Source: Macrotrachela quadricornifera (taxonomy: Eukaryota > Rotifera > Eurotatoria > Philodinida > Philodinidae). From it: DNA of 64,000 bases. Position numbers and translations under genes: made by a program. Each line of letters begins with the position of its first letter. The stretch's first letter is position 1. Positions 5,291 through 51,745 of the stretch are shown here, piece after piece. The DNA lies in contig JAJEKB010017875.1 in assembly GCA_022393335.1 (NCBI GenBank), positions 34,315 to 98,314 of the forward strand, in the 5' to 3' direction. Under the pieces are notes generated by a model. The model had not been told where the DNA came from and searched no databases. It was given only the letters and a program-made list of their open reading frames with translations.

Positions 5291-5446
5291 GATAGAATGA
5301 TTTGTTTTGGTTTTCAAATCCTTTTGGTTCATCTAAAGCTTCGATGCAACTATATGTCTATAAAACTAGTAATAACATTAAAAAAAAACTACAGTAAAAT
5401 AGCTCACACCTTATACGAACATGTGAGTTCCACATTTTAGCCTCAA

Positions 5447-21735: not shown

Positions 21736-24700
21736 TTACATGTTTGATGATGTTCCGCATAATTCTTTGAATTGAGTTATATTTTGTATCTTTGCTTGAA
21801 TAAATTCTCTTGTACATCGACGTGGTTCTTTTATTGTCCAACGTTTATTATTAGGATCATCTAACTGATTAAGTTTTTGTATTTCTTCTTGTGTTTTAAA
21901 TTGATCTCCAATTTTTCCTTGTATAATATCCGAATTTAATTCTATTTTATCTTGTTTAATATCTGATAATAATTGTATCGATCTTTGGAGTATGCGTTCC
22001 CAACCAGACAGATTTTCGAGTGATTTATTCGTATTGTTTTTTGTTCGTCTCTTGTTATATTCGTTCAATATAAGTCTGTCTTGAGTGATATCCCATGCAA
22101 TTTGATCTTGCTTCAGTTCGGTTGTAAACTTTGAGTTATGTAAAACTTTTGAAGTTTTTCGATTGAGTTTTTGTCTCAACTTATTCGATTTCATTTGTTC
22201 ATTCTTCTCTTGTAATTCTTTTATCATTATTCGACGTTGTTTTCGTGTTTCATTTTGGAATATAATATCTTTATCAATCAATGTCTGATAATAATGATGC
22301 GCTTGATTATGCATAACCGGTGAACCCATAATTAATGGTGGATAACGAAAATATATATTTGATGGTGAATGATCAAAATCTGAATAAGTTATATTTGTCG
22401 TCCACCATGGATTTTTGTCTAGCAGTAACATTGGATATTGAACATCATTGAAATCACCTGTTAGTGTAAATGGTGGAATGTTTCCTCTTATAATAGTCCC
22501 ATTCGATGCTTTATTCATCCAACGTTCTATACACAAGACAAGGTCGTTTAAATTCCTTTGAGTTAATTTATTGTCTAAAAAGAAAATTCAATACAATATA
22601 TTGATTAATGTTGAACGAACTCTAATGAAAAGATCTTATCTTTAATACAACGAATTTTCCGTTATTAAATATGAAGATAATCGAAATATTCAAAGTAAAT
22701 CCATTTAGTCATATAACAAATAACAAATAACAATATCGAGTATTGTTCAAGTAACTTTCAAAATTCTCTATATAGAAAAGCTTTCGCTTGCGCAATCAGT
22801 TTCTATAAATTCATTATTAGTTTCAATAAAAACAATTTACAGGATCCTTAACTCTAAAACAACCAATAAATTAAATTTATTTATTCTATGATTATTTTAG
22901 AAATATTTAATAATGAACACAGTGAGTGGCAAAAGTTTGATTGCGTTTGTTCGATGACATTCAACTAGGATCCAACAAAAAATAACGAAGTATTTATAAT
23001 CAATTCACTGATTAAATAAATACAATCATTTTATACTTAGAGAAGTTTTTTGAATGATACTAACTGTATAATATAAGTTCATTATTTTTCTCAAATTATT
23101 AAAACACAATATTGTGTATTATGTTTTGATTAGAATAACCAGATTTTAAAAATTGTTCTTCAATCTCCTTGAAAAATTAAATTAGATCTATAATTCTTAG
23201 AAAATTAAGGAATAAAATAAAATGCAGTTATCTGAATATTTTTCAGAAGGAACGAGCAACCGAAGGAAAGCTTTTTTTTTGGTTCTGTTTTAGCGAAAAG
23301 ATTTTCATATAAAGATTTAAGTTGAGTAGGATTAATGCAAAATCTTCTACTATATATGATGATGAAGGAGTTTCTTTCAATAATGATTACATTTATTTTA
23401 TGAAAGTATATTTGAAATTCATCAATCGAAAAAATTACATAGTTTGTATAAAATTATTGTTCTAGAGTTCCAAAATCTAGTAATCAATTAAATTTTAAAA
23501 TAATTTCATATTTTTCATAATTCACTGAAAATTTCATCGAGAAAAAGCGGAATCAAAATATTTCGACATAAGATTTTCGTCATACATAGAATTCATGATC
23601 GATAATATACTCGAAAAATTTCAATACTCATGGCTATGTCTTTCAGTATGTAGGACACTATACAACCAACATAGCTCTCTCACACCTTTTATTAATCGTG
23701 CATGTCTTTTTTTAAATTCACTATCTCGTAGTGGAACTATACACTCGATTTGAAATCTTACAGACAATTTCTATCTATCAAGAAAATATCATGTCAAAAT
23801 ATAGTGTTTCCTTTATATAGTATTTACAAAAGCAATGGAAAAACACTCATTCATTCATTAAATAAAATATTCCTATATGAAAGTTACAAAGGCGAACTAT
23901 ATCAAATTCTACAACGTCAGATTTGTATTTCTCTATAGAAGCAATCGAACTCCTTATCTGAAATTTTTCAAAATGAAAATCCGTTTTAGAGAGGAAAATG
24001 GAGGAAATGATGCCTTAATCTTGAGTTCTCCACATTATTAAACTTTCATTTTATTGAAATTTTTCTCCAAATATTGAAAACAACGGAATCAATGGCATAG
24101 TTAGAAAATTAGAAATAAAGAATAGAATGTTCTAAACACATATGGAATACCTTCTATACATTATTGATAATTGTTATATATTCGAAACAAAATTATTGAA
24201 AAATGCAATAAATATACCGGTAAAATGTGATTACTCTCCTTATATATTTATTTTTTTCTTGTGAAAAACTTACCTCTTTCATAATTTTTATCTGTCGACG
24301 AATATGAATTTAATAAATTTTTGTTTTTTTTATATACAATTGTTTGTAAAAGTTGTTGCATATAGCTATTGTAATGTAGTCCTTCATCTCGGTTCATTTG
24401 CTCCCTTTCTAAATCTATTTCGTTTTGTTGATGTTCATTTGGTTGATTAGATTGTTCTTCCGGTAGTTTCTCATAGTCAATGTCAGATAGATTACCATTC
24501 TTGCAATCTTCGATAACCAATCTTAAAGATTTCATTATTTTGTCTAGTTCATCAGTTGGAATTCGATCTCGATCTATAATCTGTTGAATATTTTTTTCAT
24601 ATATTTGTTCTCGTTGTCGTCTTTGTTCGATTGTTATTTGTGGTTGAAAATTCTCTTCATATGATACTTGTTCTTCTTGGTTTGATTTGGTTGATTGTAT

Positions 24701-27700
24701 CGAATACGTTTGTCCAACTCTCCCAAGTTTTGTATAGTGAAGCTATAAAAATAAAAGTTGATAGTATGCGAAGTAGAATGAATCCAATCACTAAATTCTG
24801 TCTTTGCTGATCTTTCTGAGGAATAAAGCAAAAAGATGAGCCATCTTATTCATATTGAGTGATCTAATTTTTGTTGAAAATTGTAGGAAACTTTCCAATA
24901 TAACAGGAGAGTTTTTGAGAAACTCTCTAGAAAGCTTGAAGGAATTTAATGTAAATCGGTAGACACAATATTGGCATCTTATAAAATCATTTTTAAAAGA
25001 GGGTTCGTGAGACGAGACCATCCAAAATAGTAGTGGTCAGTTGTCAGAAAATTTTAGATTTTGATATAAGTCAGCTAGTTTGAAAGAACATAAAAAGTTA
25101 GGTAGAAATGCAAACTTTTGAGCAAAATCTTCTAATATTTCAGGGAAAAGTTATTTGGACCAAAAATATTGACATATCAAAAATCATAGATTTTTATGGA
25201 TTTTGTTTTTTTGAAATTTTTGGTTACAAAAAATTGATTGAAGGTTTTATATTTTTATACCAATCGATAGAATGAAAGATACTCTGCAAAACTCTTTATC
25301 TTGTTTATTCACTATGCGTGCCAAAAAAAACTAAATTCACTTTAATATGTGAATTCGACACTGTTTTTTACATACTTCTTTTCTACATTTTTCTTTCTGT
25401 TATGCACTGTTCTTTTAATTATTTAGAATACGTTTTACCTAGTATTGTAGAAAATCGAAAGGTGCATTTTTTGATAAATAAATATTTATTCTAAAGTACT
25501 GATAAAATCTCGGAAAGTCCATAATAAAGCAGCTCACTACACGATTTTTCGTATTTTCATGAAAATTCACTGAATAATTTTTTATTTTGACAGGAAAAAT
25601 TGCACTGTGTATCAAAACTAATAATATATTTGGAATCAACACTAAAAACTGACCTAGACCATATATGTTTCAAGGATTTTGGCAAAATTTTTTTTAATCT
25701 AAAATTTCGTCCTAGTCTTCCTCCTTAGGGATCTGATGATACAGGAGTTCCATTAAAAAGATCTTTCGGAAGTATAGATGAGGTTCTAAACTTGTGAGAT
25801 GTTAGTAAAATACAAAACTCCATCAATCTAAATTATATAAACAGCGTTTCGATGAAAATAGATCATTTTTCAACAAGCAGTAGTTCGAATCACATAACCA
25901 GAAAAAATTCTATTCTTGATGAGTGCTGAATACAGTTATCAAAGAGATCTAATTGGGAAAATTTTCAATGAATATTTTGTAAAGTAAAAGTAATTATTCG
26001 CTATAAATTAGTGCCATATTCGATCATAGAATATGTCATTGCTCTAAAATGAATTGACTAGTTTAAAAACTTTATAATTGATTTCTAAACTCATCAAAAA
26101 CTCTTACACGACAAAAATTAAGAAAATTGAGGACAAGAAGTTCATGTTAGATTGTTTATAACATAGATTGGTCTATTCTAGGCCCTTCCTTTGAATAGTC
26201 AAGATCGTACATTGAGAAGATCTTGCGTTTTCAATAGCTAACTCTTAATTCATTATCTTATATTTCAAATTCTGTTGATGATAATCGTTAATTGATTTGC
26301 ATAATCTTACCAGTTCAACTAATAGTTTGTCGTATTCAAAACCAAAATGTTCGTCCAATTTGAAGTGTATCTCTTCCCGAAATAATTCATAATATAAATT
26401 TGCTATAGTAATAGAATGAAGCCAATTGTTATCTTCATCTATTCGATTTGTCATTGGTACGATCGCTATGATTTTCTTTTTTGACATTTTAGCTAAATTG
26501 ATGTGTGCCAAACAATTCTCATTTTTTAAATAATTTCCAGTGAAATAGACAAGAATCACATCAGTGTTTTCGAATGATGATTCAACAAATGAGGATAGTT
26601 GATTAGAATGATTGACACAAACTAAATAACCTTCATCAGTTAGATGATCAGCAAGTTGATTTGATAAAATCTCATCTTCAGGACAACATATTATTTCAAT
26701 ATTACACTTATTGAAAATATCGTTCAATTTTGGTTGTTGAAATTGGTCAGAATTTGTGATTTCTATTTGCTCGTTCATTTGAATTGATAATAAAGTTTTC
26801 TGTTTAATAATTTCTGACATGATATTATATCTTTGCTGCATTTGATAAACAGCAGTTGGTGAGCCAGTCAAATGTAATCGGTATCGTTCTGTTCCTTTTT
26901 GTTTATCCGATACGCAATAAAAGGTTGGAAGGACGAATTGTTCTATAGCATATTTATAATAAACATTAATCATATATTGGTTCCATATTTTTGAATCAAA
27001 TGCATCATCAAGTTCAACTGTTTTGATTAGATGTTTCTGGAAATAGACATTAATTGCATTTTGACCTTTGACAATATTAGAATTTTGTGATGTTTTCAAA
27101 TGTATTTTAATCGCTAAATAAAATAACAAAAGAAATGATTTTAAATTGAAATAACTCGAACAAATATGATCAACAATCGACAATATAGAAATAGATTTTT
27201 AATCAATCAGACCTTAACTAACGACGATCACATTTAGTTTTAGCTATAATCAAATCAAAGAATAAGAGTTCACTTTATATTTAATTCAAATCTGGATTGT
27301 TCGTCCAGACTAGAAAAATTGAATGCCATTCAGTCTTAACTATAAGGCTTTTCAATCAACTAATATTCAGTAGTATCACACATTACATATCTTACTCCGT
27401 TCAATAATATGTAATTAATCATGTCGAGCTTATTTTGCAAGAGAAAAAAGCAGACTCCAATAGACTTCTTCATATTACTAGAACTTCATGAAATCTCAAA
27501 AGCTTTTACGGATAAAGTCCCCACTGTTGCTCCTTGTTATCATGTATCATTCTCGATTAGCAACTAAAAAATATATTGGATTGATCTACTGTACATAATT
27601 ACATATTATGAAAGTCATTCTCTTACTTGAAAATTTTAGTTTCTATATGCAATACAATGGCACGATATTGTCAATACGATCCTATACATTGATTTTGAAT

Positions 27701-30700
27701 AGGCGTTTAGAGACTCATTTGAGATTTGATCTAAACAATAATTGACGATTAAAGTCATATTTGCAACATAGATGAAGTCTCTCGAGGTTAAAGGATCTGC
27801 GCAATAATTTGAGTCTCTAGAATATTACTGAAGAGTTATGATCGTTTTGCTGAATTTTTCATTCTTAATACGATACTTATGAGACCTAAAACTTTGCTGA
27901 TAAATAGATTTAATTAAGATTAGAATTTTTGTGAAAGTTTCCACAAAAGTTGAATGATTCTTTCTTCAAATATGGACTTTGAAAGCAAATTCGATTATCA
28001 AAACTTTCTTGTAAATCGTGACTACTTTTCTTAAACTCGATAAAGATGTTATTGTAATTTGAGAATATCTTGCAATCAATTATATTTATCTACTGGCAGA
28101 GATTCGACTCAAAATTTATTAATTGATTATTTACTACAAGTGTCATATTAGAGGTGCAAAGTTCAGTAACAAACATAGTTTTAGAATAAAATATTATGAT
28201 CTCAAAATATTACACAATTATTCAAATGATAATAAAAATCAGAGATGTATTTGAGATCTAGGTATAGGTAAGTTTATTGATGGTTACATACTTGTTATTG
28301 GAAAATAAAATTGTTCATAATCATTGTTTTTAAGTTGCATTTGAAGAATAGTTTGAGAAAATAAATTATACAGATCAGATTGGTTTTCATCGAAAATAAA
28401 TAGGATTGTCCAATTATGATTAGAAAATCTATTTGTTTCAAGTTGATATTTCAATTGATAAATGATTTGTTCAATCAGTTGTTTTCTATTAGAATAGTTT
28501 TGCCATTCAGTTGTAGAAAATGCAATTCTCTTCACATTATTTGTGCAAAGAGCTTCAATTTGTGTCAATGAATTTGAAATGAATTCTTTAACTGAATTTT
28601 GAAGAATAATTTCCATCTGATCATTGTTGATTTCTGTTGAAGGTGGTAGCCATGGAATAAATAGAAGTTTTCTATGAGTATCTTGTTCAACAAAAAAACT
28701 AGTACAATTGGATTCTATTTGTTCTTTCTGAGCATCTGTAACCACTGAAATAATAGTAATATCTACCTAGAATAACAACGATTAAAGATTGAAAATGAAA
28801 TATTTTTTTGAGATACACTGACCATTGGTAATGTTGAATTGTTTGTTTTATGAATTTCTATTCCACCAGTTAATGTTGATAGTCTTTTCAACATTGTTCG
28901 TGTATTACTAAATTCATTTGATTGTTGAATAATAAATTTTGAAGTTGATTGTATTGTAGATGTTGTTTCTAGTTGAGGCAGTTCGATGAGCTCATTATTT
29001 GTTTGCACATCAATTTTCTCGATTTGACAATTATATTTTCGAGCAATTTGTTCTATTTCCAAATTTTGTTTTGTTGTTAATATGAAATCATTTTGAATAT
29101 ATTTAAAAATACTAATTACTTGTTTGAAAATCAAATTAGTGATCATTCTTTTGATTTTTAATGTCAAATATTGTGGTGCATAAAACAAATTTTCACGTAT
29201 TTGAATTTTAACATTATCACCTTTATATTCCGATTCAATATCTCTCAACTGAGGAACACAATTGTCCAACAGATATTCACGCTAAAATGGAAAAATGAAT
29301 CAATAAATCAATAGTTTAATTTTATATGTAGAAGAAGCAAATATACAATATGAATATTTAAGAAACATAAAAAAATTTTCATTCATTTGTAGTTAACTGT
29401 GACATTTGTCAGAGTAGAAGAGTCCACTATATTTCAGACAAATTAATTCTGTATTAGATAAAATGATAGTAACCTGTTTTGATACAAATTCATTTGTTGT
29501 ATATTTTCCTCATCGTTAAAATCATCTCTCAAAACGAAATCAGAAGTCAACCCATACTAAAGATTTTCTAATATGGCTGCAAGAAATCATCTGCTAGTTC
29601 GTGAATCTTGATGAATGCAATAGAATGACATTTCTTTTCTCTCTGAATCTTCCATTTTTTAATTGTCTAAGTAACTCATGACGATCTCTAAATCTAGTCT
29701 GCATAATTTTATGACTTTTAAGTTAGATTTATTAAAGAACTGTGAAAATTTTCTTGGAAAACTTATCATCGAAGTTTCGATTAAAAGTTTAAAGTGTTAA
29801 ATGTACAAAAGATACCTTGTTTTATATCAAACAATTGTCAGATTGAATTTAGTTTATGTTTGATACATGAGAGTTGTATTTGTTACACTGTCTCATCATC
29901 TTAGAAATTTTTATTCTATTTAAATTTTTCCTATGCTTTTATCAATCACTTTTCTTCTTCATTTCGATATTTTTCTTTATCTGTCTTTTCTTTTTAGCTG
30001 TTGCACGTATTCTTTAACTCATCAATATGGTAGAGTATACGATCATGACTTACGTTTTTATGATCTCCTCAATCGAAACAGTATTTTCTTTAATCTTACA
30101 TTGACATTCCATCAATATTACTCATCGTTTGATACTCAATATCTTTATATAATCAGTGAAATATCACGAGCAATAATAGAACACTCTATTAAAGCTCTCT
30201 TTTTGTTCTGTCTTTCTTCTTCTACAAAAATCAGGAAATTGAAATTTTAAATTCATTCGAACGCTTAGTATTCTCTAATGATTCAGAAGCGTCTTGACAA
30301 AATCGATACGATTTTTAGATATAGTAGTTTTAGTTTAGTTTGTGAAGATGATATGTCTATTTCTCAATTAAATCGAGATTGAAATCGAATTGATTTTCGA
30401 TTATGGTGACGTTGTAGTTTCTTATTCTTCCACACAACAATATCTAAAAAGCGATTGAATATTTCATATTCGAGCTAAGTACTAACAAACTAGAAAACTC
30501 TAACGTTTTCTATAGAATCATTGTCCTGATGACATTCTAATGACTGGAGGAGAAGGTAAATCATCGAATTTTATGTTAACTTGCACAATATATATTTTCA
30601 TACATGAGTTTTACAAGACGTAGATGGCAGATCGAATTTGTATGTTAATATCTACTTTCCATTACACTACATCGTTGATTAATGTCTATAGATAACGAGT

Positions 30701-33700
30701 TTTCGGTTCTAATCTTACTCTGTCTTACTCACGACGTGTTCGAAATATATCAACATACAATAGATGTTGTTTGAAGTAGTCAAATCATTGCTGAATAACT
30801 CAATATTCTGATAGTTTAAAAAAAAAATTTGTACTGATTTACTATGATTTTGAGATGAAGTTTTTCGACAAGCTACATTTTTTTTATGTACCAAATTATC
30901 ACGCTGTTAAATATGTAGGCAATGATTCTTATATGTTAGTATTGATTTTGTAAACAATATCTTGAGTATATTTCATGACAGTCTATAGAAGTATTTAATC
31001 TACTTGGATCTATCACAAATTCACAGAAGAATAATGTTAGTTACGAATCAATCTTTGTACTGGAAAACTTACAAAAGTTTGACGGTAACACATTAGAAGA
31101 TGTAATATCAATATATTACTGATGCAATTTCGATTTACCGTCGATAATTTTAATCAAAATAACAATTGGAATAAAATTATCAGAAGAATAAAGTTCTTTG
31201 ACTTTCATCAAAACATAACAGTTCGATGTTACTTTATTTATGATTATTGAACCATTACTTATTCATAAAATATTCTCTAAAGTATATATTGAGTAGCTCT
31301 ATTCTCAGTCTACATTTAAATTCAATGCTCAAAAGGTTATTGAAAAATACAATGATTACAAACAAACAGTATTAATTAGAATTGTAACTATGTTAACTCA
31401 TATTTACATAATCGTGTTATATACTTGGATGAAGAAAAGATATCAAAGCTCTGGCTCATTGTTTATACTCATCTAATAGTGATTATCCTTATTTTGGATT
31501 AATATTCTATCTCAAAACAGATTTGATATATATCTATATTTAACAAGATTGATCAAAATAATGTTAACTAAGAAAACTCAACTATATATCTGCTGATAAA
31601 TATAATAGAAAATTCCTCAGAAGTTTAATGAAATCTTGCATTTAATATCATGATGATCATGTTCAATGGCCTATTTAGAAAGATCAATTTAGTGTGTTTC
31701 TATAAAGACATTATTTCGAATGTCAAGACGTTTTATCTATTCAGAATATGTAAGTATTTTATCATTGAAAACTCATACGAGATCATGTTGATAGCAATAA
31801 AGTACTAGACGAACATTTACTAAAAATTCTTGAAAGAAGAGTTGATTGCTTTTTTAAGAGAAAATTTTTTGATTGTTAACTAATACCATTGCCGAACTAC
31901 ATAACAAAAAATAAAGTCAATTCTATTTTGAAACAATTTGATATGAAATTGCTGATTCAAAAATTGATTAATTGTCTCTATAGAATTATATGCATATAAA
32001 TGTAATGTAGATATTCTTACTTGTGTAGAATCAAGTTCAATATTAATAGTTTTCATTTCGTGTTTGTATAAGAGACGTTGCAATTGTTTCTTTGCATTGT
32101 TTACCATTATTTTTTGTCCAAAAAAGCTAATTTTCAATTCTGTTTGGAATGGATATTTACAATATATAATAGAAAAAGTTTGCAATTGTTGTTGTTGCTG
32201 CTTTTTATCATTAAAAAATTTATCCAATTCTTTGCTAAAATTCGTTTGAATACAATCGAATTTTGGTATAACTATATCTTTTACATAACTTATATCATTA
32301 TTTATTATGCGATCAATACATAGTTCTGAAACGTCAAATGTATGATTAGAATTGAAATAATGAACGACATAATATCCGGATAATATATCTGTTTTTTCCC
32401 AAACGGTAAATAATTTTTCATTATCGAAAATTCTCTGTATAATATTAATAGCTGAATCAGAATAAATATTCTTCGACCAATACATCACTAAATAGAAATC
32501 CAAATTTTTGTGTCATAATGAGAACAACTGATTAAAACTTAATTAATGCAATAGAATTAATTAACGATGGAAAATTTTGAAATGTATAAAAACAAAAAAT
32601 TCTCGTGAAAATATTAGACAACTTTGAGAGATGTTTATATCTTACAGATCTACATAGTTTTAGTCGACTTTTTAGTCCATAAATATTTCTTAGCTATAGG
32701 TTTTTTTTGTGTATTATTCGAGAACTAAATCTGATGCGATAATAGATACACCAAAGAAAAAGTTTTGTGTGATTATTATGATCAAAATAATGAATATCAT
32801 TGCTTTTTTAAGAAACGAGTTTGATCATAGATATCTGGAATGATCTTGTAACTACATTTATTCTTATTAATTCAAACGAGAGACTTATTTTAGCGAATGA
32901 GTCAATAATTACATCCAAATTGCTAAGGTGATATAGTGTATAAAATACAATAATTAATATAACTACGTTATTTTAGATATTTTTATCAGTTTTATCGACT
33001 CTTCTGAAGAGATCTTCAACCAAAATCACATACAACGTTATTCTAGTGCATATGCTCGTTTTAATCTACAATTGTTCAAATCAATCTTGACGATTGATGC
33101 AATACATACATTTTACTATAGAAAGAATTCTAGGTGTACCAAGATTATTTAATTTCTAGATGAGAATTTCAGAACGAAAGCTCCGCAGTTTGTAATCGAT
33201 TTTTTTAATTAGTGTTTTAATTTGATAAATAAGTGGAACAGTGGAAATACATCAGCAGTGTTAGTTCCACATTTGAGCGCCATTAAAGTTTCATAGATAA
33301 GCTTTCTAACTTGGCAAAACTCAATCGGATGGTCTTAACTATTGATAAATATCTTAAACCTCAATCATTATTCTATGTGTCACAGTATTTTTATATGGCA
33401 TTGTATACTATTGGCTAGTCATAATTATTTCAATAGTTTAATCAGTCCGTAACGGACAGTAAACTAGTGTAAGAAACTAAACAAAGAGAAAAATTGAAAA
33501 TGGTTAGAACCAATACAAATTAGACTTGATTCTATATCTGTGAATAATAGTTTTCTCTTAATTGAATAAATCAATCTAATCTCAGCTAGAACAATATCAA
33601 TGTGCCTAGAGAAAACAATCTAAAGTAATAAAGCAATATGGAGTTCTCATTCGATTTTATATTGCATTAATTTTATCTGAAACTTTTCCAAGACCAGTTT

Positions 33701-34018
33701 CTTACCTTTTTTATCTGAATTTTCGCTATTGAAAATTTTCGTTTTCACCGTTTGAAATAATGCTTTTATGTAATCCCAAGCACGTTTCACATTTACTTCG
33801 GCTCCTGATAATTCTATCGATATGCCAATTTCGTTGTCAATTCGAGGTTGTGATGGTATCCAATAATCAACAGTGTATTCTTTCGCTAAGTACTCTCGGA
33901 GATTTGCACAAAATAATGGATTATTGAAAAATTTCATATTGATATTCGTTGACTCAATGCAAGACACATTTGCATTGGATTGAGCTGCATTAGTTGTCTC
34001 ATTCATGCTTATAGACAT
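21736..34018 (-). CDS. KH-like/macro/TIR multidomain protein, TIR pseudoenzyme copy
   Basis: Seven minus-strand exons (34018-33706, 32487-32021, 29281-28823, 28766-28292, 27113-26311, 24742-24274, 22574-21736) join through GT-AG sites into 3825 nt, 1274 aa, without a stop. In order: KH-like module (FFNNPLF ... SGAEVNVKRAWDYIKALF), a second (TELKISFFGQK), a third module (VKIQIRENLFYAP), a degenerate macro domain split by a 56-nt intron (GGIEIHKTNN|VDITIIS, then KLLFIPWLPP), a KH-like module at about 573-690 (LHLTGSPTAVYQMQQRY), a TIR domain at about 707-815, a Gln/Glu-rich linker, and a C-terminal domain with PPFTLTGDFNDVQYP. In the TIR domain the position of the catalytic Glu is His775 (CLAHINLA), and the first strand is IEIICCPEDE rather than a LSY type. 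NAD+ cleavage is therefore unlikely. Exon order and intron phases match the plus-strand paralogue at 42-52 kb. An intact frame despite lost catalytic residues suggests selection for a non-enzymatic role. Confidence 0.78.
22575..24273. other. Intron 6 of the minus KH-macro-TIR gene
   Basis: 1.7 kb of AT-rich sequence between exons 6 and 7. No other gene or element is recognised. Confidence 0.5.
24743..26310. other. Intron 5 of the minus KH-macro-TIR gene
   Basis: 1.6 kb with donor GTAAGA at 26310. No supported feature inside. Confidence 0.5.
27114..28291. other. Intron 4 of the minus KH-macro-TIR gene
   Basis: 1.2 kb with donor GTATGT at 28291 and acceptor TTTAG at 27114. Nothing recognised inside. 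Confidence 0.5.
29282..32020. other. Intron 2 of the minus KH-macro-TIR gene (longest, 2.7 kb)
   Basis: AT-rich with no convincing frame. The plus-strand frame at 29933-30250 has AT-bias composition and no start context. I do not call it a gene. Confidence 0.5.
32488..33705. other. Intron 1 of the minus KH-macro-TIR gene
   Basis: 1.2 kb with donor GTAAGA at 33705. Nothing recognised inside. Confidence 0.5.
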
Positions 34019-37000
34019 AAATGATAATCAAGCAGACCAACTAAACAATACAAAACAGAATTCGATATTATAGTCAAATATCGTAGAGAATAGTTCCTAC
34101 AGACAAAGAGATTCTATTTGCTACGTTTTTTGGTAAACACATATTACAAACGTAGAGTATTTTTGTCTTTTGTCATTTTTTTATTGTCTATATTTCCATT
34201 AGCAGCTCTTTCATTTAATGAGGATATAACTTCTCTAGAGTAGGATTTTCTATTGTAGAATATGTGTGTTCACTGTACTATCTCATTTACGTTGTGACAG
34301 AGAAACTGATATTTTGTGCTTCATTAGAAAAGATTAGTCATATAAAAAGAAGCATAAGTAGTCGATCATACATGTGTAAAATAAAACAAAGCAGAAGGTT
34401 TCCTAATGATCTAATCATAGGTGAGAACCTTCATTTGGTTGTTGTAGAAGACTAAGGGATCAATCTCATACTATCTAACATCGATTAGAAGATTTATGAA
34501 TATGGCCATTCATCTTTGACGCCTTTATGCTCTAAACATATTATAATTTTTCAGTGATCTCATTGTACTAATCCAATTCCTTTTCTTTTTAGATTGATTT
34601 TTTCTCTCGATTTATCGGATTCATCATATACCATTGCAACTACCAAAAATGCCACAAAGAAATTCAATTTTCTCGGAAAAATTAAAAAGAAAATCTGATT
34701 AGTCAGGAATAGGTGATTCAAAAGTTAGATTTGTTAAAATACAGCAAAACAAATCGCATCGATACAAAATTGACTAATAAAAAAATTAAAAAGGGATCTG
34801 GTTGATGAAGGAGGTCTGATGAAAAAGTACGATTACTTAGTGATAAATAGGCAAATAGGTCATAGAATAAGATATGTGAATATCACAAATTTAAACAAAT
34901 CTTAGACGAGAAAAATCGCAATTGTTCGGACAAAATGCGCGAAAAAATCTTAAAGATGTGAATTATGGATAAAAAACGATTTAGTCGAATGAGAATCACA
35001 TAAGAAAGTCTGACGAAGCGATATCTGATCGATTCCATGAGAAATAGACAAATAATTTGACCGTATGGTTTATTTGAAGCAACGAATTCTAAATTAATCT
35101 TTTTGGATAGTCATGGAAAAGTACGAGTATTAGCGATGGGAAATGAACGGCTAATTCTAGTAAAATATTATAGTTGTGTGACTCTGAACCTTAACTAATC
35201 GTATTACAGACTACCACTAATTGAGACTGATACTTATAATTCCTATAAATGATTATGAGAACAGAGAATCGATCATGAGTAGCACTAGAAGAGTCAATTG
35301 GAACATATACGGAATCGGTTAATAATTTTCTATAATTTAAAACAAATATTAATTCAATTTATAAAAGCTTGCTAAATTTATAAAGATTGACTGATCTAAC
35401 GTAACTCTTAGGATACAAATGTGATTATATTTTTTTGACAATTACAGAGGGTTACATATGCTGCTCAACGTCAATTAGAACATCTTAACACAGCGTTTAA
35501 TGACATTTCTTCATTATGACTAAAATCTTTGATTATTTCTCTCTCATCGACAAAAAAAAACAGTTTCTTTGATTAGAATAGAGCGAAGATATTCAATTAG
35601 ATATGAACTCAAATGGCAGACCACCTGTCTGAAATATCGACTGATACAAGACAGGACGGAAGCACATTGGATGGTCGTTGGTATCAATTCAATCTATGGC
35701 CCAAATCTCAAATTCATCGAGTCAACTGATTTCCTCTTGAGTTTGTTTTTAATTACATTCTAACCCAAGTGCAAAACATTGGACTCGATGGCATCGTAAT
35801 CCTACTGACTACACTAATACTACTGAAGTTCAAGTATTTCTTCGCATAGATATTTTACAGAAGTCGGAAGCATCAGTCTTGTTCACTTTCAGCTTATAAT
35901 ACATCTAGTTAAGATCGAGATTTGCATAATGCACATCTACTATTCAGATATTTGAACCTTCTAATGACTATTCAGGAGATTAACTTTCAATTTATTCCTT
36001 CAAATAACCTATTTGGTCAAATTATTCGTCTGCTTCTTATACGACTGATTGGATGACACTCTTCATTTTCTTGAAATAATCATTTCTCCCTTTCTCAGCG
36101 ATCTTTTCTGCTTCTCTCCAATTTTTTGGCCAACAAAATTTTCTCAAGTGATTTATACTTGATAAATCAGTCTCTCATCGGCGTTCTACAGCTATAAAAT
36201 TTCACATCGTATTTTCTCTGAATACCTCAAAATTTTTCATCGAGCAAAAACGTTAAAAACTAGAAAAGCGCCAAAATGAAAAACACAATATCTGCAAGTG
36301 ATCTCGCAATTAATTTTTTCGCTACATTATGAATATGACTTGATCGATAAATTTTTTTCTGAAAAAATTATATAAATATAAATTTTACCTCTAGGAGATG
36401 ATGAAAGGCAAAAATTGTGGTCTCCTATACAAGTCAATTTCACCTTGAAGACTATATTATTCCGTTGTGCACACTACCGCCGAATGCAAAAGAAGATGAG
36501 AGAGAAAAAGTTCTTTGTTGACTGTTAATATCATATGATGACACCGATTTTTGAATGTACATAGTTTCCCTTATCTTCTCTTATCTAGTTTACTTCAGCA
36601 TTATCTACATTTTAAATCATTTTTAATAGTTACCTATTTGCTTAATATGAGAATCACACGTTCTTGTCGTTGTTTTCTTCAGAATGTTATTAAGAAACGG
36701 GGTTCAATAGCATAGAATCTGAAAAAAGCCACTTTATATTTGTTGATGATAGATTGAAAAATATTTTTTCATATTCTAATGCAATATGAAAACAACAAAA
36801 AAGAATAAGAATGACTCATCATAGAAAGAAAAATAGTTCCTTAGTATTTCTTTTTTTTCATACGTGTCTCCTATTTTTTTGTACTTTTCTTTACATGGTG
36901 CAATATAGGATGATTCATACATCGAATAAATGAATTATATGCATGTCATAATAAAAAACATTTATTTTTCATTAAACAATCGAGTGAATAATAACGGCAA

Positions 37001-40340: not shown

Positions 40341-40732
40341 ATGAGAGGGTGGAACGTAGACGATGTTGCTAATTGGTTGAGAGTAATTGGTTTTGAGAAG
40401 CAAATAAAAATATTCAAGGGTAGATATTGTTCTTTTATTGTTAGTGTATCTCTCAAACTTTTACATTAGAAAGAAATATTAATGGCAATGCTCTAATGAA
40501 ACTGACCAATAGAGATATTCTACAAATACTCATTTCATTCAATGAAGATGGAACAATTAAAAAGCCAACCATTAGAACAATACGTCGATTTCGAGAAGAA
40601 TTATCAGAATGGAAGACAATATACGGATTTTTGGAAAACAGAAATATTGCCAAGTAGGCCAACTTGTTTAACCGACTTCTATCTATTATGCAGTATTTAT
40701 TCTTGTTTAGAACATATAGTGCTTCGAAAACT
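40341..40732 (+). CDS. SAM domain, partial gene (three exons)
   Basis: Exon A (40341-40419) encodes WNVDDVANWLRVIGFEKQI. Exon B (40470-40653) continues with NINGNALMKLTNRDILQIL and RTIRRFREELSEW. Together they match a sterile alpha motif, a small helical domain for protein or RNA binding and oligomer formation; SARM1 uses two of them. The A/B junction is in phase through a 50-nt intron. A third small exon C (40694-40732, IYSCLEHIVLRKL) follows through a ~40-nt intron and ends at a GTGAGT donor. The start is unsure, since a cag acceptor-like site sits just before the ATG. No further exon could be paired. It may be a lone SAM protein, or a 5' part of the KH-macro-TIR gene 1.6 kb downstream. Confidence 0.6.
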
Positions 40733-42246: not shown

Positions 42247-42266
42247 TTTTATATATATCTATAAAA
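42247..42266 (+). promoter_or_regulatory. TATA-rich element upstream of the plus KH-macro-TIR gene
   Basis: ttttatatatatctataaaa lies 27-46 bases before the ATG at 42293. It is plausible as a core promoter, but the region is AT-rich, so the call is weak. Confidence 0.3.
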
Positions 42267-42292
42267 TTTCTTAAGTATAGTGTATATCCACG

Positions 42293-45200
42293 ATGTCAGT
42301 TCTACAATACATTCTACTAACCAATGCTGACGAATACATTGATAATGATTATCGAGTAGAATTTCAAATAGTTGTTTTCTCTCTTTTGTTAACTCCACAA
42401 AAGTTAATATACATATATATCATTTCAGCAGGGAAATTGATGAATTTTCCTTTGTGTAACAGTTCCTCGAGCCACCATAAGTTTTTCTTATTGTGTTTCT
42501 AGGCTAAACAACGACAAAATTCGAACAAATTATCATTGGTAATTATTCAAAGCAAAAGCGAATTAACTGGAGATGTCGAGGACAATGCTCAATACAAATA
42601 TTTGATAAATAATCCTATTCACGTTGAATTCTTTAAAAATCCAAAATTTGTTCCATATTTAATAAATTATATCCAGGAAGCATCATTTATGATTCCCATT
42701 CAAATTGAACAAGTATTATCAACAAATGAACAACCATCACGCTCTTATACTATACAATTCTTAGGAAACCAGCAACAAGCAAAGACTGTTTGTAACGTTA
42801 TCGAACGTTTGTTTAAAGCAGTCAAATCTAAAATATACCATCAAAACGAAGGTAAAGCTACACACAATGAATCAACATTTATCTGAATTTGAGTTGTGCA
42901 AAAACCTCTTCAAATAAGAGAGCATTTTGTCTCCAAATCGTTTATGGCTCAGTTGAATGATATACTAAAAGTTTCATAGAATAATTGGGACTACTATTTT
43001 TTTTACTTGAAAATATTTCGTGATTGCGTATCAGTTTGTTTTATAATAGCCAATTGAGTATAGATCATATTTTGAGTAACAGAAGAAATACAATTTTCAA
43101 CGTCACTATCGATATGTATCCCTAAAATATAGCTGTGAATGTCTATAAGATGAATGCTTACATTTCACCCTTATGCTTAATAAATGAAGAAGCCCCAGTT
43201 GAGACAGGTCAGTTATAAAAATGTTATTACTTACAATTATCTCATGTAACTGATGTTCATCTTCATTGAGTGGCGAATTGCACCACTTCTTTTTTCTTTC
43301 AAAGAACACAATAACTATATGAATAATAACATCGAGTTCTGTTAAGCAGACGAAAAAAGTATTTATGAGGAAATTAAGGATTGAAAACTTATGAAACTCT
43401 TCCATAAACAGGAGGAAATTCCTAGCATTAGCACATTTCTTCCCTTATAGATATACAATCATTGTCTCTCGCATTGACAATTGAATTTCATGAAACGGGA
43501 TAACTTTATCTAGTTTCACTTAGTTGTTCATAGATAAATCTCGGTTTCTTCCGATAAGGAATGAATGTATTTTATACTTTACAAGAATGTTTATACTGGT
43601 AATTATAGAGGATAATTTAACACAGTGATCAGTATTTGTTTTACATTCACATACTCATACTGTAGCAATTTTGATTTATGATTTTTTATCGCTTATAAGT
43701 CGATCTGTCCAACCGTGACGAAATCACATTTTTTTCACTTTTCTTTCTTCAATATCTCAACACATTCAAATCAAATAGGGGCAGATACTATCATAAGATA
43801 TAAAAGTCGGACTGCTCTACACATTATAAAAGTTTCATTTCATCTCGCCTTTCTTTCATAGTTTTATAATTGAAATATATGACCGTGACGGACTCACCAA
43901 GTTTTAAATATGATGAGAAAGTCAGATAATAAGTTATATATAGAAAAAAAATAATTCCAAAAGTATAACAACGTGGTCTTCATAAGTGGAAAAAAGTCTC
44001 GTGACGGAATCACCATAAGGAATGAACTACTTTTCAAATGTACATAACTTTCTTAAGGGGCGACAGAACTTCGATCTTTTGCTATAGCTAGGAAACCTAA
44101 CCAAGACAGTTTTTGAACATATAATTAATTTTGAAAAAAAATATTTGTCTGTATAAAATGTTCCGAAATAAAAGCTCATGCTAAATATTAATTTTCATCG
44201 ATTCAGAGTGATATTTGTTTGGCAGCATTTTTTTTCTAAAATGTACAAAGCTATTCAGATAAAAACCATGTTTTTATGAGTTATCGATCAGGCTCTGCAG
44301 CATGGTTGTATTCCTTTTGTTTATTTTTGTGGTTCAATTTTGCTGACAGAGGTGGACCGTTACTTAAGAAAATCTTCAAGCGACTGAAGAATATAGCAGT
44401 AACTGAGCAATAATTATCAGTTATTTAGGAAATCAAGAGTACCATTTATATCTGGATTAATGAAAGCTACCAATTTTCTTTGTCAAAGAAATAGTTTACG
44501 ATTGTGTTTAAAATGTTTATTATATAGTTTTCCATTAATTTGAAAAATTTTATTTAAAAATTTTTAGTTAAAACCTGGTTACGTAATCCAAGAGCAATTT
44601 CTATTATACAATCAATTATGGATAATCAAAATAATCTTTTTACTGTCTGCCAAACAAGTTATGAGCCCTGGAAACTGTTAAAAGTTTCATATTTTAACGA
44701 AAAAAACTTTAATCATTTTGAAAATTCTATTGGAATTGATCAAATTATTGAAAATAACATTCTACGAATAGTATTCTTCATACACTCAACAGTGAAAAAT
44801 AAACGAAACATACAATTCCAACAAGAATTAATCGATATACTGAAACATCATGATCAAGAAAATCAAATGAGTTGTTCTATTCTTCACAATACTACTATCC
44901 CCTTTATGACACGCAACCAAAAACAACAACATATACAAATATTTGGTTATTTCAAATTAGTCAATAATCTCGTGCAAAAAATTGAAAATTTAGCCAATAA
45001 ATATTGTTTAACAAAATATCAATTGGATGAAATTTCTTCAACAGAAGTTAGTTTTTTTTCTCTCTATTCATACAAACTAAAATTTTAAATCAAAAAAATA
45101 GTTTTAATCTATAAATCATTTAATATTCTCATGTACGATATTCAAAATATCCTCAGATATTTTATATGACGTATAGGATGAATTATGGTATCATACCAAT

Positions 45201-48200
45201 ATTCTAAATTGAATTTTGCATTGACACCATAAACTTACTTGAAAAAGTTCAGACTAAAAGACTATGATTGGAGTTTTATTTTACCATAATTTTCAAATTA
45301 TATCTTAAGAATTTTAATTGAAATAGATAAAATCGACTCGATTTGTTGTCTTTATTTTATATTTTAATATCTCGCTTTATACTTATATCAAGTATTACGT
45401 GAGATATAAATCAAAATTTTTAGACACTTAGTATTTCCTTGAGTAGTTTAAATCAAATTTTAATCATTTACCGTGGGAAACTGTTTTATGAAAGAATGTG
45501 ATAGTGTTGTTAGATCTAGATCATTCGTTGCACCTGAAAATGTAAAGTAGCGAAATAAATGTCAGTGGTAGTATTGCCAGTAGCGCTATGATCTTAGTTT
45601 GTCGTTATACAGAGGTTGAGATTTGAATAAAAATCTTTTTTGACCCATAAAGTGTCGATATGAAGAAATTCAAATCTAGTTTTTTGAAGATATTCGTTTT
45701 AAATACTCTTTTTTTTAATTGAAAAAAAAATGTGTAAAATGATCGGATTTGTTTATGCAACGATACCAAATTCCTTCACATTAATTACTTTAATAACCTT
45801 GCGATATAAACAAAATTGAAATGAATAAAGCTGAACAATAGGAATGATACATTGTATTTCCTGGAAACAATAAAGCATTCCGTCACAAATACAAAACTGC
45901 CCGATATTAGCAGGTTGTACAGAATTTTTACAGTGGATTGCTTCTCGAACTTGACAGTTTGTGTAAATATAAATTACTCTACGTGCGAAAAGAGAACTTG
46001 TGTCTAATATAAGAAAAAATTTTTAACACTTTTGTCCCCGAAGATAACCATGTTGGAGACGATTGTTCTGAATAAGACTGTTTCACAGAAAAAACTAACT
46101 ATGCTAGAAATTTTTCTAAGTTAATCGCTGCTACACACTTGTTATTTTTCTCGTAGGAGAAAACTTCTTTTTATTATATTTTCCAGAAGGAAAAAAGTAT
46201 TGTGACAATTCTTAGCAATTTTACTGTTGGAGATAACTACGCTAGTAACGACTGCTTGAAAATAAAGCTATGCAAGAGGTAATAAGTAATAAAATTGTCT
46301 TGAAAACAAAAATATCATGGTATCTTTTAGATCGAGTAAGCTCACGCTGTTACCTCTGCGCAAACCAAAAATTTTTAATATCTCTTCAAAATTTCCTGGC
46401 TAAACCTATCGTTTTAGAGGAGATCTTGAATAAAATATAGCTGACTTCTTCAGCTTGCCACATAACTTCATGTTTTCTACCAAAGAAATTTTTTTAAATA
46501 TTATTTAGAAGTCTACAGTTGCTACAGTTTCCCATTTTAATAGGACCTGAAAAATGGAAAAAGTGAGTTCTCGCATACAAAAGTTTTCTTTTTATCTACA
46601 TTATGGCTCCTCAAAAGACTATAAGAGTTCGTCAAAAATTTGAATAGAGAAAACCGTTGTTGAATTTATATTTTTAAATTTTAGGTTGACTATCTTGTAA
46701 ATGTTTGTCACCGAGAATTGAAGGCGATTGAAAAAGAATTCAAAAACGATAGTATACAATTTCGTATTCGACAACACGCATTTTATGCACCATTACAATT
46801 GAAAGAAGAAATTGAATCTCGTATAAAAACTTTATTATCACAGTTAACAATGAGCACATTTAAAACTATGGAACTCTATTATGATATTGCCAATAAAGCA
46901 AACATTATTTTGAAAGCAATTGCTCGAAATAATCGTTGCCATTATGATTGTCAAATTGAGACAACATTAAAGGCATGTACAATACCAAGAGCAATTGAAA
47001 CTGCATCGACAAATTATTCTCTTTCAAAATTGATTATCGAACAATCAGATTTATTCTGTTCATCACCTATGGTCCATCAACAAGCAATATTGACTAAGGG
47101 ATCACTCGAGGTTCTTATTGGTGATATAGCCACACAACAGGTAAGATAATCATCTGACAGTGATGAAATTAATCTGTTATTTTATTATTTTTTATTACTC
47201 TATTTTAAAATATTTTAGGTCGATACAATTGTTATTCCATCCATGTTATGCGGATTGAAAGAAAGTCTACTTGAACGAGCTGGTGAAATTGTGCAGCAAC
47301 GATCAGAAAAAATCGGGAAGAATTCAATGCCATTAATTACTGAAACAACAGCTGGAAGATTGAACTGTAAAAAGATTCTATTTGTGAATTGGTCATTATC
47401 GCCAACGATGGTGACTGACGATCAAAACAGTTTACATGAATCTGTACGAACATTCATTTCAAAGGTCATCCAATATGTTGTTATGCAAAATCAGCAGTCG
47501 AATACAGAAGCTCAAACAATTGCATTTGCAGTTCCCGATTCATGTACTGATGAAAAAACTTTGGCTGAAGAAATGATTTATGAAGCACAACATCAGATAC
47601 AATCAACAAAATCAACATCATTAAAAGTTTCATTCATTCTATTACCAGATCAACAAACGTTGCATCAACAGTTTTTAAACATAATTTCAACAATGCAAAC
47701 AAATAATAATAATTATGGACTTATTTTTTGTCCAACATCAAGTGAGATAATGTTAAACTGGTTTTTGAGTTTCTGCTCGATATATTTATTCATTTCAAAC
47801 AGTATCATCATTACACAGATATCTAAAGTTCTAATCTTTTTATACTAAGACTGTTCATTCTAGTAACAATTTTCATATTATCGTCTGCATTGTTAAATGT
47901 TACGATTTAATCTTATATTAAACCAACGTAAAAAAGACGTGACTTTTGATAAGAGTGTGATCTTTTATACAATAGGTTCTATAGAAGACTTACTATTAGT
48001 ATCTTTGAGGAATGCTCTACGATAGATTTTTCAGTAGTTCCCTTACATTTCACAAATGCTAGAAAATTGTCAAGGTGTATACAACTATCTTACTATCGAT
48101 TTGTTGTTTCAACTTTAGTATGAGTGAAGAAATTGTTTACTACTATTACATCTAACATCTGCTTCTTGTAGAAAAGATTAATCAAGTTAAATTTGATAAA

Positions 48201-51200
48201 ACAATAAACACCATAATTCTACAACATGTGACAGTATAAATGACTATTCGTTATAGTTTTAGAAACTTCTTACATTTCTTATATAGAACGATGATCTTCT
48301 TGAGTGACTTCTTTGTAAAAATCTATGAAAATCTCTAACTACATTGAATAACTCAAGAACAGATGATTAATTGATCAAATTGAATATGGTTTTTCTTTCA
48401 TTTGTTTAAGCTATGACAATAACATTGACATCATCAAAAAAAGAATATATAACAAAATGTCAAGAAAAACTAAACAATTATTTGAGACGATGTATGCATC
48501 GAATAGAATTGAATGGATTCAATTATTGGAATCAATATTTAATAAATGCCTTTTATAAATATTGTGATGACAGATGCGTTTTACTGGAAGTTAATAATGA
48601 TCAACAAATCGTATTAACAGGATCAATTACTAGTGTATATCAAGCAAAACAAAAATATGATGTAATAGTTAAATTAGTTAAACAGAAGATACATTTGCAA
48701 CAATCGTCAATTGAAACATCACGATCAATGTCGGTTGTTCGACGTCTAACAAAAGATTCTACATCAACTACTGAACCTTACACATTTTATAATGTCATGT
48801 TAAGTTATTCACAAAAAGATTTTATTTCATCTCGTCATTTAGCGAATCGTCTTATTGATGAAGGTTTTTCCGTATGCTGTCATTCTAATGAAGTAACTGG
48901 TCAGAATGATACATTATTGAAAATCAATCAATCTGATTGTGTTATTCTTTGTATTAGTAAAAATTATTTTGAGGATGAACAATGTGAAAAAGAAGCTAAT
49001 TATGCTAATCAAATTGGAAAACAAGTTATTCCTGTTAAAATTCAAAATTGTACAACAGTTGATTGGTTACGACCAGTGATTGGAAATCATTGCCCGTTTC
49101 ACATGTTCGGATCGGAAAATCAATTTGATTTAGTATTTGACAAATTATTGCTGAAAATAGTGAGTATTATTTCTTTTAATATATTGCTGAAAAACACTAT
49201 CTACTATTAATACTTTTCCTATAGCTTATTACAAAATCAATATCAATCATTTTTCTTATATACAATACTCCGAAAAATAGTTAAATAAGTTCTTCGAATG
49301 AAACATTTGTAGGCTAAAACAAGACATTGCGCGTTATATAGGACAGTCCAACAAGTCAAGAAAAGACTATCTCACTAAGAGTTTCTTAACGACATTGTCT
49401 ACCTCGTTATGTTTAATCTTGCGAATATATTTTTTGTTAAAAATTGCGTATAAATATATGCGCTCATTTATTTCACAGTTGAAGAGTATTGTCTAATCAA
49501 AACAATTGTCTTCGTAAAAAAATAAAGAATCCTAATCATGCTTAAATATGTTTACTAAATTGTTTTTCAACCACGCTACTTGCATTTTTTATTTTGTATT
49601 TAACCCTCTTTTGTTTTCATTATTCATTCACATTACTTCTCATCAAAGATCGTTAGATTTACTATATTATAATCGACATAATAAGTACTACTGAATCTAC
49701 AGTTTTGCTATTATTTAAATATTAGATGATTTTGATATCTAATGTGTTTTTGAATTGAACAAATATTGATCGGCATCCACATAATCTGTTTCTTAGGCCT
49801 AGTCAGTTTATTCACTTAGTAGATGCGATCAAATCATTGTTTCTTATTAGTCACTAATCAGTTTTTATTTTTGTTCTATCATTTCCATACGTTGTATATT
49901 ATATGATACCTATTACCGAGCACATTTCTCAGCATAGCTAAAATCTCTTAAGGAACATTAAAACTTTTCTAAGAATTTTACGTCCATAGGTAATATAGAA
50001 GTCAAGTAGATTCTATTACTTTATAAATGAATCTATTTGGTTAAGATTATGCTTAACTAAAATTTCATTTTCAAATAGAATTGATCTTTTCTTTTTTAAT
50101 GATTGTTCTACTTTCTCAGAGACAGTCTTGATTTATTTCAAAAACACAGAATTCATCAAAAATAGTATATTAAATCGTTTCAAGTCAATTTATAATAGAT
50201 ATACTAGTTTTACCAATCAACGAACATTGAAAATTTCTTCATAAAACTGTAAATTATCATTCATTGACATTAGATCTTCATTTAGTTTAGGGATACTAAC
50301 CATACATCGTGATGAACTAATTTTTATTCAGAAAATAAGAAGGCATGTCAACGAGCATTAAAAATTAGGCTAACAGATTGATTATTAGATATATGAAACC
50401 GTTTTCTATCGTCTTTGTAGAAAATTTCTAAATTTCTGTAAACGAACAGTTTTGGTCTAACTATAGATAGAAGAGATCTGAACTGTTCAAATATACGTTA
50501 GAACCATGTTCCATGAAATCACTTGTAAATATACTATATGTATCATCTAAATTTGTATGAGGCTATATTGGTGTATTTTAGTTTCAATATACAATCCCCG
50601 ACGATATCTCTTCGCTTGAACAATCATCTAGTCGAGCGAGTAAATTGGAAGAAAAAGATGCAACTATACACGATGAAAACAATGCAAAAATCCCTACCAT
50701 ACTTTTACTTGAACAACGAACAATAATTTATCCAATGAATGTAAATAACTTAAGCAATTTGGAAAAAACCAAGTTCGATAACGATGAAAAGAAAATTATC
50801 ATTGAAAATGTAGAAGATATTATTCATGAAATAGAAAATGATTACAAAGAATATATGATAAACAATCAATATGAACGAGATACTCAAAGTACGTAAAGTT
50901 ATTAAAAATGATCTTTGTCTGTTTCTTTGTTTCAGTTTCCTTAATTTGTATCATATTTAGATAATCATGAATATGAAGAAAGAAAAAGTCAAATGAAACA
51001 CCAAATCTGGTTAGACAAAGGAATATTATCATATAAATATTGGTTGGAACAAGCTTCAACTCTAAAAACTGAACAAAATGCTTACCCATTTACAATTTCT
51101 GGTGATATTAATGATACCATATTTCCGACGTTGAATGGAGTTTTACAAAATCCAAATCTATTACTTCGATCCTATATAGAAAAATCTTCACCATGGACAA

Positions 51201-51745
51201 ATACTTCATCTGCAAGAAACCTATCGATTGTTCAATATTGTGAACCTTCATCCGAACAGTATAACTGTTATTGTAGCGGAACAACTTACAGGTCGGGAAA
51301 TATGTTACACCGAACCATTCGATATTTCTCAAGGGGAGTGATAACTGAACGACAAATCAGACAGAGACTTAGTATGGTTGATACAAATAACATGATCCAA
51401 CGACGAAAACAAATTGGAAAATATTTTTTGAACAATTATAAATACATTACAGAAGAGAAGTTGAAAAGATATTTGCAATTTGCGCAACGAATCAAAGATA
51501 ATGCTGATGAATTGGAAAGATTATGTGAAATTGATGCAAGTTCTTTACGAGAACAATTAAAACAACAAATTCAACCATCTTTAAAAGCTATATTTTATTT
51601 ATGCACTGAACATCATGCGAATGAACCAACAACAACAACTTCGAAAACTGAAATTTTATCAAAATTTCCGCAAAAATCAGATTCTAATTCGAACAAATAT
51701 TCAAATTTCCAAAAGAAAATGTCTATCATTCGAATTCATCTTTGA
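42293..51745 (+). CDS. KH-like/macro/TIR multidomain protein, TIR glutamate intact
   Basis: Eight exons (42293-42355, 42503-42851, 44568-45046, 46685-47140, 47219-47741, 48411-49159, 50582-50888, 50961-51745) join through GT-AG sites into 3711 nt, 1236 aa, with no stop. Exon 1 is the least sure; exons 2-8 mirror the minus paralogue with identical phases. Domains: KH-like modules (about 50-137, 160-297, 298-430), a macro domain at about 432-620 (ILTKGSLEVLIGDIATQQ|VDTIVIPS, AGRLNCKKILFVNW), a KH-like module at 625-720 (IVLTGSITSVYQAKQKYD), a TIR domain at about 749-855 (YNVMLSYSQKD, ISKNYFEDEQCEKEANYA, KQVIPVKI) with E818 at the NADase glutamate, a charged linker, and a C-terminal domain with YPFTISGDINDTIFP and coiled-coil-like helices. 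KH plus macro recalls PARP14-type proteins, with a TIR in place of the PARP domain. A role in NAD+/ADP-ribose immune signalling is inferred. Confidence 0.8.
42852..44567. other. Intron 2 of the plus KH-macro-TIR gene, with a thrice-repeated motif
   Basis: 1.7 kb. The motif cgtgacg(g)a(a/c)tcac occurs at 43714, 43884 and 44000. No exon is supported; a minus-strand frame at 43106-43405 has AT-bias composition. Confidence 0.5.
45047..46684. other. Intron 3 of the plus KH-macro-TIR gene
   Basis: 1.6 kb with donor GTTAGT and acceptor TTTTAG. Nothing recognised inside. Confidence 0.5.
47742..48410. other. Intron 5 of the plus KH-macro-TIR gene
   Basis: 0.67 kb with donor GTGAGA and acceptor TTTAAG. 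Nothing recognised inside. Confidence 0.5.
49160..50581. other. Intron 6 of the plus KH-macro-TIR gene
   Basis: 1.4 kb with donor GTGAGT. Nothing recognised inside. Confidence 0.5.

Follow-up and report, generated by a model that had tools for sequence, protein, structure and literature searches.

The gene and its two haplotypes

The stretch of DNA considered here, called the window below, comprises 64,000 nucleotides of the genome of the bdelloid rotifer Macrotrachela quadricornifera (C3022:34315-98314, in an assembly of 450 Mb and 5695 contigs), with a G+C content of 26-35% in 2-kb steps. On its plus strand lies a gene (42503-51745) whose seven exons join in frame to encode 1215 residues, and in its product KH-like modules, a macro fold, a further KH-like module, a TIR domain and a C-terminal region follow one another on a single chain. 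The introns measure, in order, 1716, 1638, 78, 669, 1422 and 72 nt, each bounded by GT-AG. This order of domains had been read by an initial annotation from the letters alone, and it is confirmed with corrections. The first exon proposed at 42293 (MSVLQY...) is rejected, as alignments of relatives show no counterpart and many of them start with a SAM domain instead, and that annotation had missed both a SAM domain upstream and a degenerate gene placed head to head with this one. The parts of the gene are as follows.

42503..42851, plus strand: exon 1, first KH-like module (residues 1-116); gene model and other haplotype
44568..45046, plus strand: exon 2, KH-like modules (residues 117-276); gene model and other haplotype
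46685..47140, plus strand: exon 3, KH-like modules and start of the macro domain (residues 277-428); gene model and other haplotype
47108..47725, plus strand: macro domain (residues about 418-597), spanning two exons with the 78-nt intron 47141-47218 between them
47219..47741, plus strand: exon 4, remainder of the macro domain (residues 429-602), with the altered loop IAFAVPDSCTDE; gene model, other haplotype and loop patterns
48411..48718, plus strand: KH-like module 3′ of the macro domain (residues about 603-705), aligning with the pre-WWE module of PARP-type genes
48782..49159, plus strand: TIR domain (residues 727-852), with the NADase-position glutamate, Glu797, at 48992-48994
50582..50888, plus strand: exon, first part of the C-terminal region; gene model and other haplotype, aligning in relatives
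50961..51745, plus strand: last exon, remainder of the C-terminal region up to the stop, including the SGDIND motif; gene model, other haplotype and relatives

Contigs C2353 and C2331 carry a second haplotype of this locus, in which the same exons are found without a single indel in 3648 nt and without premature stops; gaps in two introns total 293 and 285 nt. Identity between haplotypes is 96.7-98.1% in exons, as against 94-96% in five stretches of non-coding sequence (the gap 40661-42502 and four introns), and the ratio of nonsynonymous to synonymous rates (dN/dS) for the whole gene is 0.44, from 29 synonymous and 52 nonsynonymous changes. One might take this ratio, which some segments exceed, together with four introns of more than 600 nt and the 1.8-kb gap to the SAM exons, as the marks of a decaying, non-functional copy in a bdelloid genome with long introns and gene duplicates. 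Such decay is very improbable, considering that the frames are open in both haplotypes, that exons are closer to each other than introns, that full-length relatives are present in at least two genera (Rotaria and Adineta), and that a class of long introns is normal in bdelloids and larger in Rotaria, according to passages of PMC5916493.

One chain in two genera

A protein search with the window product returned 18 matches, all from Rotaria, the best being P0001 of R. socialis (1321 residues), whose match spans 100% of the query with 50% identity. A profile search raised the number to at least 27 proteins, adding Adineta vaga (P0023, P0029) and A. steineri (P0022, P0024, P0028), so that among the matches listed the family has so far been seen in bdelloids only. 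The TIR region is partly or wholly missing from P0003, P0004, P0015, P0017 and P0025-P0027, which may be an effect of annotation. In the same genome, a paralogue on contig C3952 holds macro, KH and TIR within one uninterrupted open reading frame (ORF) of 455 residues, which disfavours a chance join of unrelated exons. Between the relatives in both genera and this single ORF, the earlier claim that macro and TIR share one chain is borne out.

GenBank labels the Rotaria and Adineta relatives (P0001-P0030) as unnamed, hypothetical, or SAM-, TIR- or Macro domain-containing, and in the portion of the open-licence literature that was accessible we found no paper on them. The same holds for the KH-macro-TIR layout itself: no description was found in the accessible open-licence texts on bdelloids and rotifers, TIR, PARP, macro domains or paired receptors, and no mention in the passages of PMC11258130, PMC9503650 and PMC8195603. 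To this extent, the statement that no animal protein with this layout has been described agrees with what was found.

A scaffold shared with PARP-type genes

The initial annotation had remarked that TIR sits where a PARP14-type relative carries its PARP domain, and this is strongly supported by sister genes in the same genome. The PARP-type gene on contig C4472 (L035) has six exons encoding KH-KH-macro-KH-WWE-PARP in 901 residues, in a model where the donor of the fourth exon was chosen so that the reading frame holds. Residues 34-673 of the window protein align with its product over 640 residues (22.5% identity, E=3.8e-28), and a match to P0032 extends to residue 685. The two genes further have three introns at the same places, in phases 1, 0 and 1, which follow the window exons beginning at 42503 (phase 1, one alignment column off), 44568 (phase 0) and 47219 (phase 1); the window gene has an extra intron inside the macro domain, after 46685..47140, that is not in the PARP-type gene. 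The match stops within the last KH-like module and TIR begins about 40 residues later, in the position that WWE and PARP occupy in the sisters.

Profile scans with Pfam accord with this division. The L035 exons match Macro over the cut-off (2.8e-6), and PARP (8.7e-5) and WWE (0.12) under it; L034, on contig C4186, matches Macro (1.7e-7) and WWE (6.5e-5) over the cut-off, WWE reaching it only here. Among five PARP-type Rotaria proteins, Macro is matched in all five (three over the cut-off), PARP in three (best 9.2e-20), and WWE and KH_PARP14_2 in two each, under the cut-off. No match to PARP was found in the window exons, scanned singly, or in 14 TIR-type proteins; Macro was likewise missed in the single exons and in all 14 of those proteins scanned whole. 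Pfam matches to FKS1_dom1, IGFL, DUF2659, Protein_K and Fuz_longin_3, under the cut-off, are dismissed as chance.

A tree of the macro and KH parts divides six PARP-type from 12 TIR-type rows at one branch with 100/100 support; as it is midpoint-rooted and carries a long-branch warning for P0030, it is read for this division only. With all PARP-type rows on one side of one branch, a single replacement suffices. Human PARP14 has the order KH, macro, KH, and with it as reference we infer that the PARP-type is the older state and TIR the replacement. Compared with the PARP14/PARP15/PARP9 (ARTD8) group, the family has in common the KH-macro-KH order and a macro domain closest to that group by profile, and the bdelloid PARP-type genes have the same scaffold and the three intron positions. 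It differs in that the window protein is without the macro phosphate loop and has TIR and a novel C-terminal region in the place of WWE and PARP, and in that many TIR-type members add SAM in front. Another gene of the same genome (L042, in C4112:36000-45000) has at 3725-5576 two macro domains followed by PARP, and by eye appears to represent another PARP15-like type.

An altered macro domain

A negative structure prediction for the macro fold had been named at the outset as grounds for abandoning the reading; models of relatives are predicted to contain that fold, and a TIR fold as well. By sequence profile, the macro domain matches PARP15, PARP14 and PARP9 only, among the matches listed, and no Thoeris macro is among them; by fold, macro-PARP structures are among the best, tied with a bacterial macro. 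In one structure search the top Foldseek row is a crystal structure of SPX with a root-mean-square deviation of 21, taken to be a fusion construct.

The phosphate loop sets the two types apart. PARP-type copies have SIAFPALGCGELKYDP or close variants in all six proteins (some of them near copies), in L034 and L035 and in both copies of L042, such that GCG is kept in 10 of 10. It is absent from all 28 TIR-type sequences that cover the loop, the window protein included, out of a set of 31 (P0001-P0030 and the window protein) from which P0017, P0026 and P0027 drop out for lack of coverage. By pattern, 27 of these read SIAFAVPDSC or a variant without GCG, P0024 reads SVAFAVLDSC by eye, and the macro domains of the paralogues on C4649 and C3952 are likewise without GCG.

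Across nine TIR-type sequences, mean pairwise identity in the macro domain is 53% with 38 invariant columns, compared to 51% with 21 in TIR and 31% with 12 in the C-terminus. The window protein keeps the macro GDI motif, and other motifs invariant in the nine are G-K....ERAG, ET....L-C, LF-NW and IAFAVP. Such conservation despite the loss of the loop suggests a site that has been changed and is not dead.

The TIR domain and its NADase position

The window TIR domain has Glu797 at the NADase position and glutamine at the position of the tryptophan. The glutamate column was set by aligning a control TIR of the same genome to Cat1 and RUN1; an alignment of the window TIR to TLR1 reaches E=0.26 only, and the glutamate was placed at CxxE. 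We take this column to be that of SARM1 E642. The placement is consistent with passages of PMC7075850. From 40 sequences, five without TIR and the gapped P0004 were set aside, leaving 34 scored rows, many of them near copies. Glutamate occupies the column in 16 of 27 A-type rows (those of the window gene's side), in one of three degenerate partners and in four of four other TIR controls. One Rotaria subfamily (P0005, P0007, P0008, P0016 and P0018-P0020) has Thr for the glutamate and Ser for the preceding Cys, a natural loss that is useful for enzyme tests. Moreover, how often the glutamate occurs need not follow the NADase activity reported, and in TLR1/2/6/10 it is frequent, as described in passages of PMC7075850. 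We regard cleavage of NAD+ by the window TIR as a tentative possibility.

These observations bear on two other ways to understand the protein. The first, raised by the initial annotation, is a Thoeris-like unit in which an ADP-ribose product made by the TIR domain would be received by the macro domain, either within one chain or on a neighbouring chain. Both folds do lie on one chain, the window protein retains Glu797 and the GDI motif, macro-type Thoeris effectors bind ADP-ribose and imidazole adenine dinucleotide in a conserved cleft (passages of PMC11204291), and ThsB_TIR is matched, albeit weakly and under the cut-off, by P0030 (E=0.029) and, within the window, by a different TIR gene (0.025). 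However, the canonical phosphate loop is missing from every covering TIR-type sequence and kept throughout the PARP type, the glutamate is not conserved across the family, and the profile matches of the macro domain lie with PARP15/14/9. Bacterial Thoeris, in which a transmembrane-macro ThsA and a TIR ThsB also bring macro and TIR into one system, uses separate proteins with a transmembrane effector, whereas the rotifer has a single chain and a PARP9/14/15-type macro without the phosphate loop. The idea therefore does not hold up well, and we consider it improbable.

The second is a purely structural adaptor, with TIR and macro as pseudo-domains in a scaffold for TIR signalling, akin to MyD88-type adaptors with an RNA-binding front. 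Replacement of the glutamate by T, I, Q or L in several lineages, the altered macro loops and the poor agreement between glutamate frequency and reported activity noted above would all fit. Retention of the glutamate in the window protein and in members of both genera, and the 38 invariant macro columns, which suggest a retained binding site, speak against it, and we hold this alternative to be doubtful, if credible.

TIR genes are numerous in this genome, with at least 46 matches to PF01582. Other TIR proteins, with an ARM-like front and in some cases SAM (labels by eye), have in common with the family a TIR domain with CxxE; no KH-macro part was seen in them. They are a possible source of the family's TIR domain. 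One such neighbour of the KH-macro-TIR pair lies in the window at 12277-18514 on the minus strand, with a TIR_2 match (E=9.5e-19) in 12277-13143 and a front that is ARM-like by eye and has no Pfam match. Next to a further TIR gene, an ORF (L039, 357-1412, minus strand) is presumably a mariner-like transposase.

Probable SAM exons upstream

Two probable exons precede the gene.

40341..40419, plus strand: probable SAM exon, first half (MRGWNVDDVANWLRVIGFEKQIKIFK); SAM_1 E=0.0022, under the cut-off; relatives start with SAM
40470..40653, plus strand: probable SAM exon with the second half of the domain (ERNINGNALMKLTNRDILQILI...); by eye, a continuation of the SAM in relatives

The second half gave no Pfam match when scanned alone; it is kept in the other haplotype, with the donor CAG/GTAGGC. 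SAM stands at the N-terminus of P0001, P0003, P0005, P0007, P0016, P0021, P0022 and P0023. The SAM exon ends in a phase-2 donor, which mismatches the phase-0 acceptor at 42503, and an alternative acceptor within the 42503 exon fits that donor's phase but removes residues kept in relatives.

SAM and TIR in one animal protein, as in these relatives, recall SARM1/TIR-1, and SARM1 is among the SAM and TIR matches. In the TIR-type family, in contrast, SAM is N-terminal and far from TIR, KH-like and macro modules are added, the tryptophan of WxxxE is missing and the glutamate is not universal. No ARM domain was matched by Pfam in the window exons or the relatives, in a genome where ARM-like stretches also escape Pfam; in the model, the part preceding the macro domain alternates between strands and helices and shows no helical repeats, and it is homologous to the PARP-type gene.

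A degenerate head-to-head partner

Divergent from the window gene (A) is a degenerate partner (B), so that B runs from 34027 on the minus strand and the A side from 40341 on the plus strand.

21736..34027, minus strand: partner gene B; ORF limits
33647-34027, 31880-32512 and 28763-29281, minus strand: KH-like ORFs of B; 28763-29281 by tblastn, the others by eye
28284-28766, minus strand: collapsed macro of B; by eye
26245-27198, minus strand: KH-TIR of B; tblastn, and TIR_2 E=1.4e-5, just under the cut-off
24248-24742 and 21736-22587, minus strand: C-terminus of B; tblastn places part of 21736-22587, and 24248-24742 is by eye

Its macro region has no Pfam Macro match, and histidine occupies the position of the TIR glutamate. 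Divergent pairs with a degenerate partner occur at three loci, all in this one genome. On C3952, the N-terminal ORF of A (minus strand) extends to L031:4988 and the ORF of B (plus strand) starts at L031:5263, some 0.3 kb away; on C4649, the N-terminal ORF of A ends near 635.6 kb and a SAM-like ORF of B begins near 645.4 kb, across a 10-kb gap that may hold other genes. In the tree all three B rows fall into a single clade (100/99), with the 13 A rows on the other side. As the B rows of three loci group together, the divergent pair probably predates the duplications that spread it. Among plant NLRs, head-to-head gene pairs whose members act jointly are known (PMC11298796); the likeness lies in head-to-head genes, one degenerate partner and several loci, and is one of analogy only, since the NLR domains there have no counterpart in the rotifer pair.

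A possible assembly switch

We favour a PARP14-derived assembly scaffold whose output has switched from ADP-ribosyltransferase to TIR clustering, with a probability of about 0.5. The family would be an offshoot of a PARP14-type gene that retained the scaffold of KH array, macro and KH, exchanged WWE-PARP for TIR and a new C-terminal region, and in many members gained an N-terminal SAM. The protein may then be a switch that works by assembly inside the cell: a ligand, be it RNA, an ADP-ribose-related or another adenine-bearing mark, would be recognized by the KH array together with the repurposed macro domain; SAM and KH contacts would cluster chains; and the clustered TIR domains would signal by assembling with one another, while those members that retain the glutamate, the window protein among them, might also cleave NAD+. 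B, the degenerate partner, would probably take part in the assembly or hold it back. Caenorhabditis elegans TIR-1 oligomerizes in vitro by way of SAM, oligomerization raises its NADase activity, and mutants in oligomerization or NADase fail in immunity (passages of PMC8923663). Because of this SAM-driven clustering, an assembly switch with TIR output is preferred over a single-chain Thoeris unit. A bolder version, which we consider speculative and unlikely, is a paired intracellular immune receptor built from PARP14, comprising a SAM-KH-macro-KH-TIR executor and a degenerate partner as sensor or brake, in which the macro domain would have lost phosphate binding, acquired a new conserved ligand site and coupled its ligand to TIR clustering.

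Several observations weigh against the assembly switch. First, the NADase site is irregular: the glutamate is missing in 11 of 27 A-type rows and two of three B partners, and the tryptophan of WxxxE in 34 of 34, though the four other TIR controls miss it too. Second, dN/dS between haplotypes is 1.4 in TIR (seven changes) and 1.0 in the 44568 exon (11 changes), which could reflect relaxed constraint in these segments. Third, the evidence for KH consists of weak Pfam matches under the cut-off, in two of 14 TIR-type proteins, and the C-terminal region has no confident fold or family; for KH and C-terminus alike, the structure-match lists are filled by macro and TIR. Finally, the probable SAM exons have no convincing splice to the window gene, and the gene models of P0006, P0029 and P0030 are without SAM.

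Other genes of the window

A carboxylic-acid-reductase-like gene lies at 55355-59661 (minus strand), with AMP-binding, PP-binding and NAD_binding_4 matches in 55355-58096 and, by eye, its start in 58897-59661. Immunoglobulin I-set repeats occupy 7738-9768 (minus strand; I-set E=1.2e-16 for 8204-8716, other ORFs by eye), and a gene at 3613-6856 (plus strand), whose C-terminal part is long, may be of the F-box kind (F-box E=0.036, under the cut-off).

Implications

The bdelloid KH-macro-TIR gene family is conserved yet uncharacterized. PARP14-type proteins and TIR proteins belong to two NAD+-linked toolkits of animal defence, and one output replacing the other on the same scaffold, with PARP-type sisters retained, would amount to a natural domain-swap experiment that makes the sensing and signalling parts of PARP14 directly testable. 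The family also supplies a macro fold that is conserved and lacks the canonical ADP-ribose loop and, with its degenerate partner, a candidate for a paired receptor in animals believed to be asexual.

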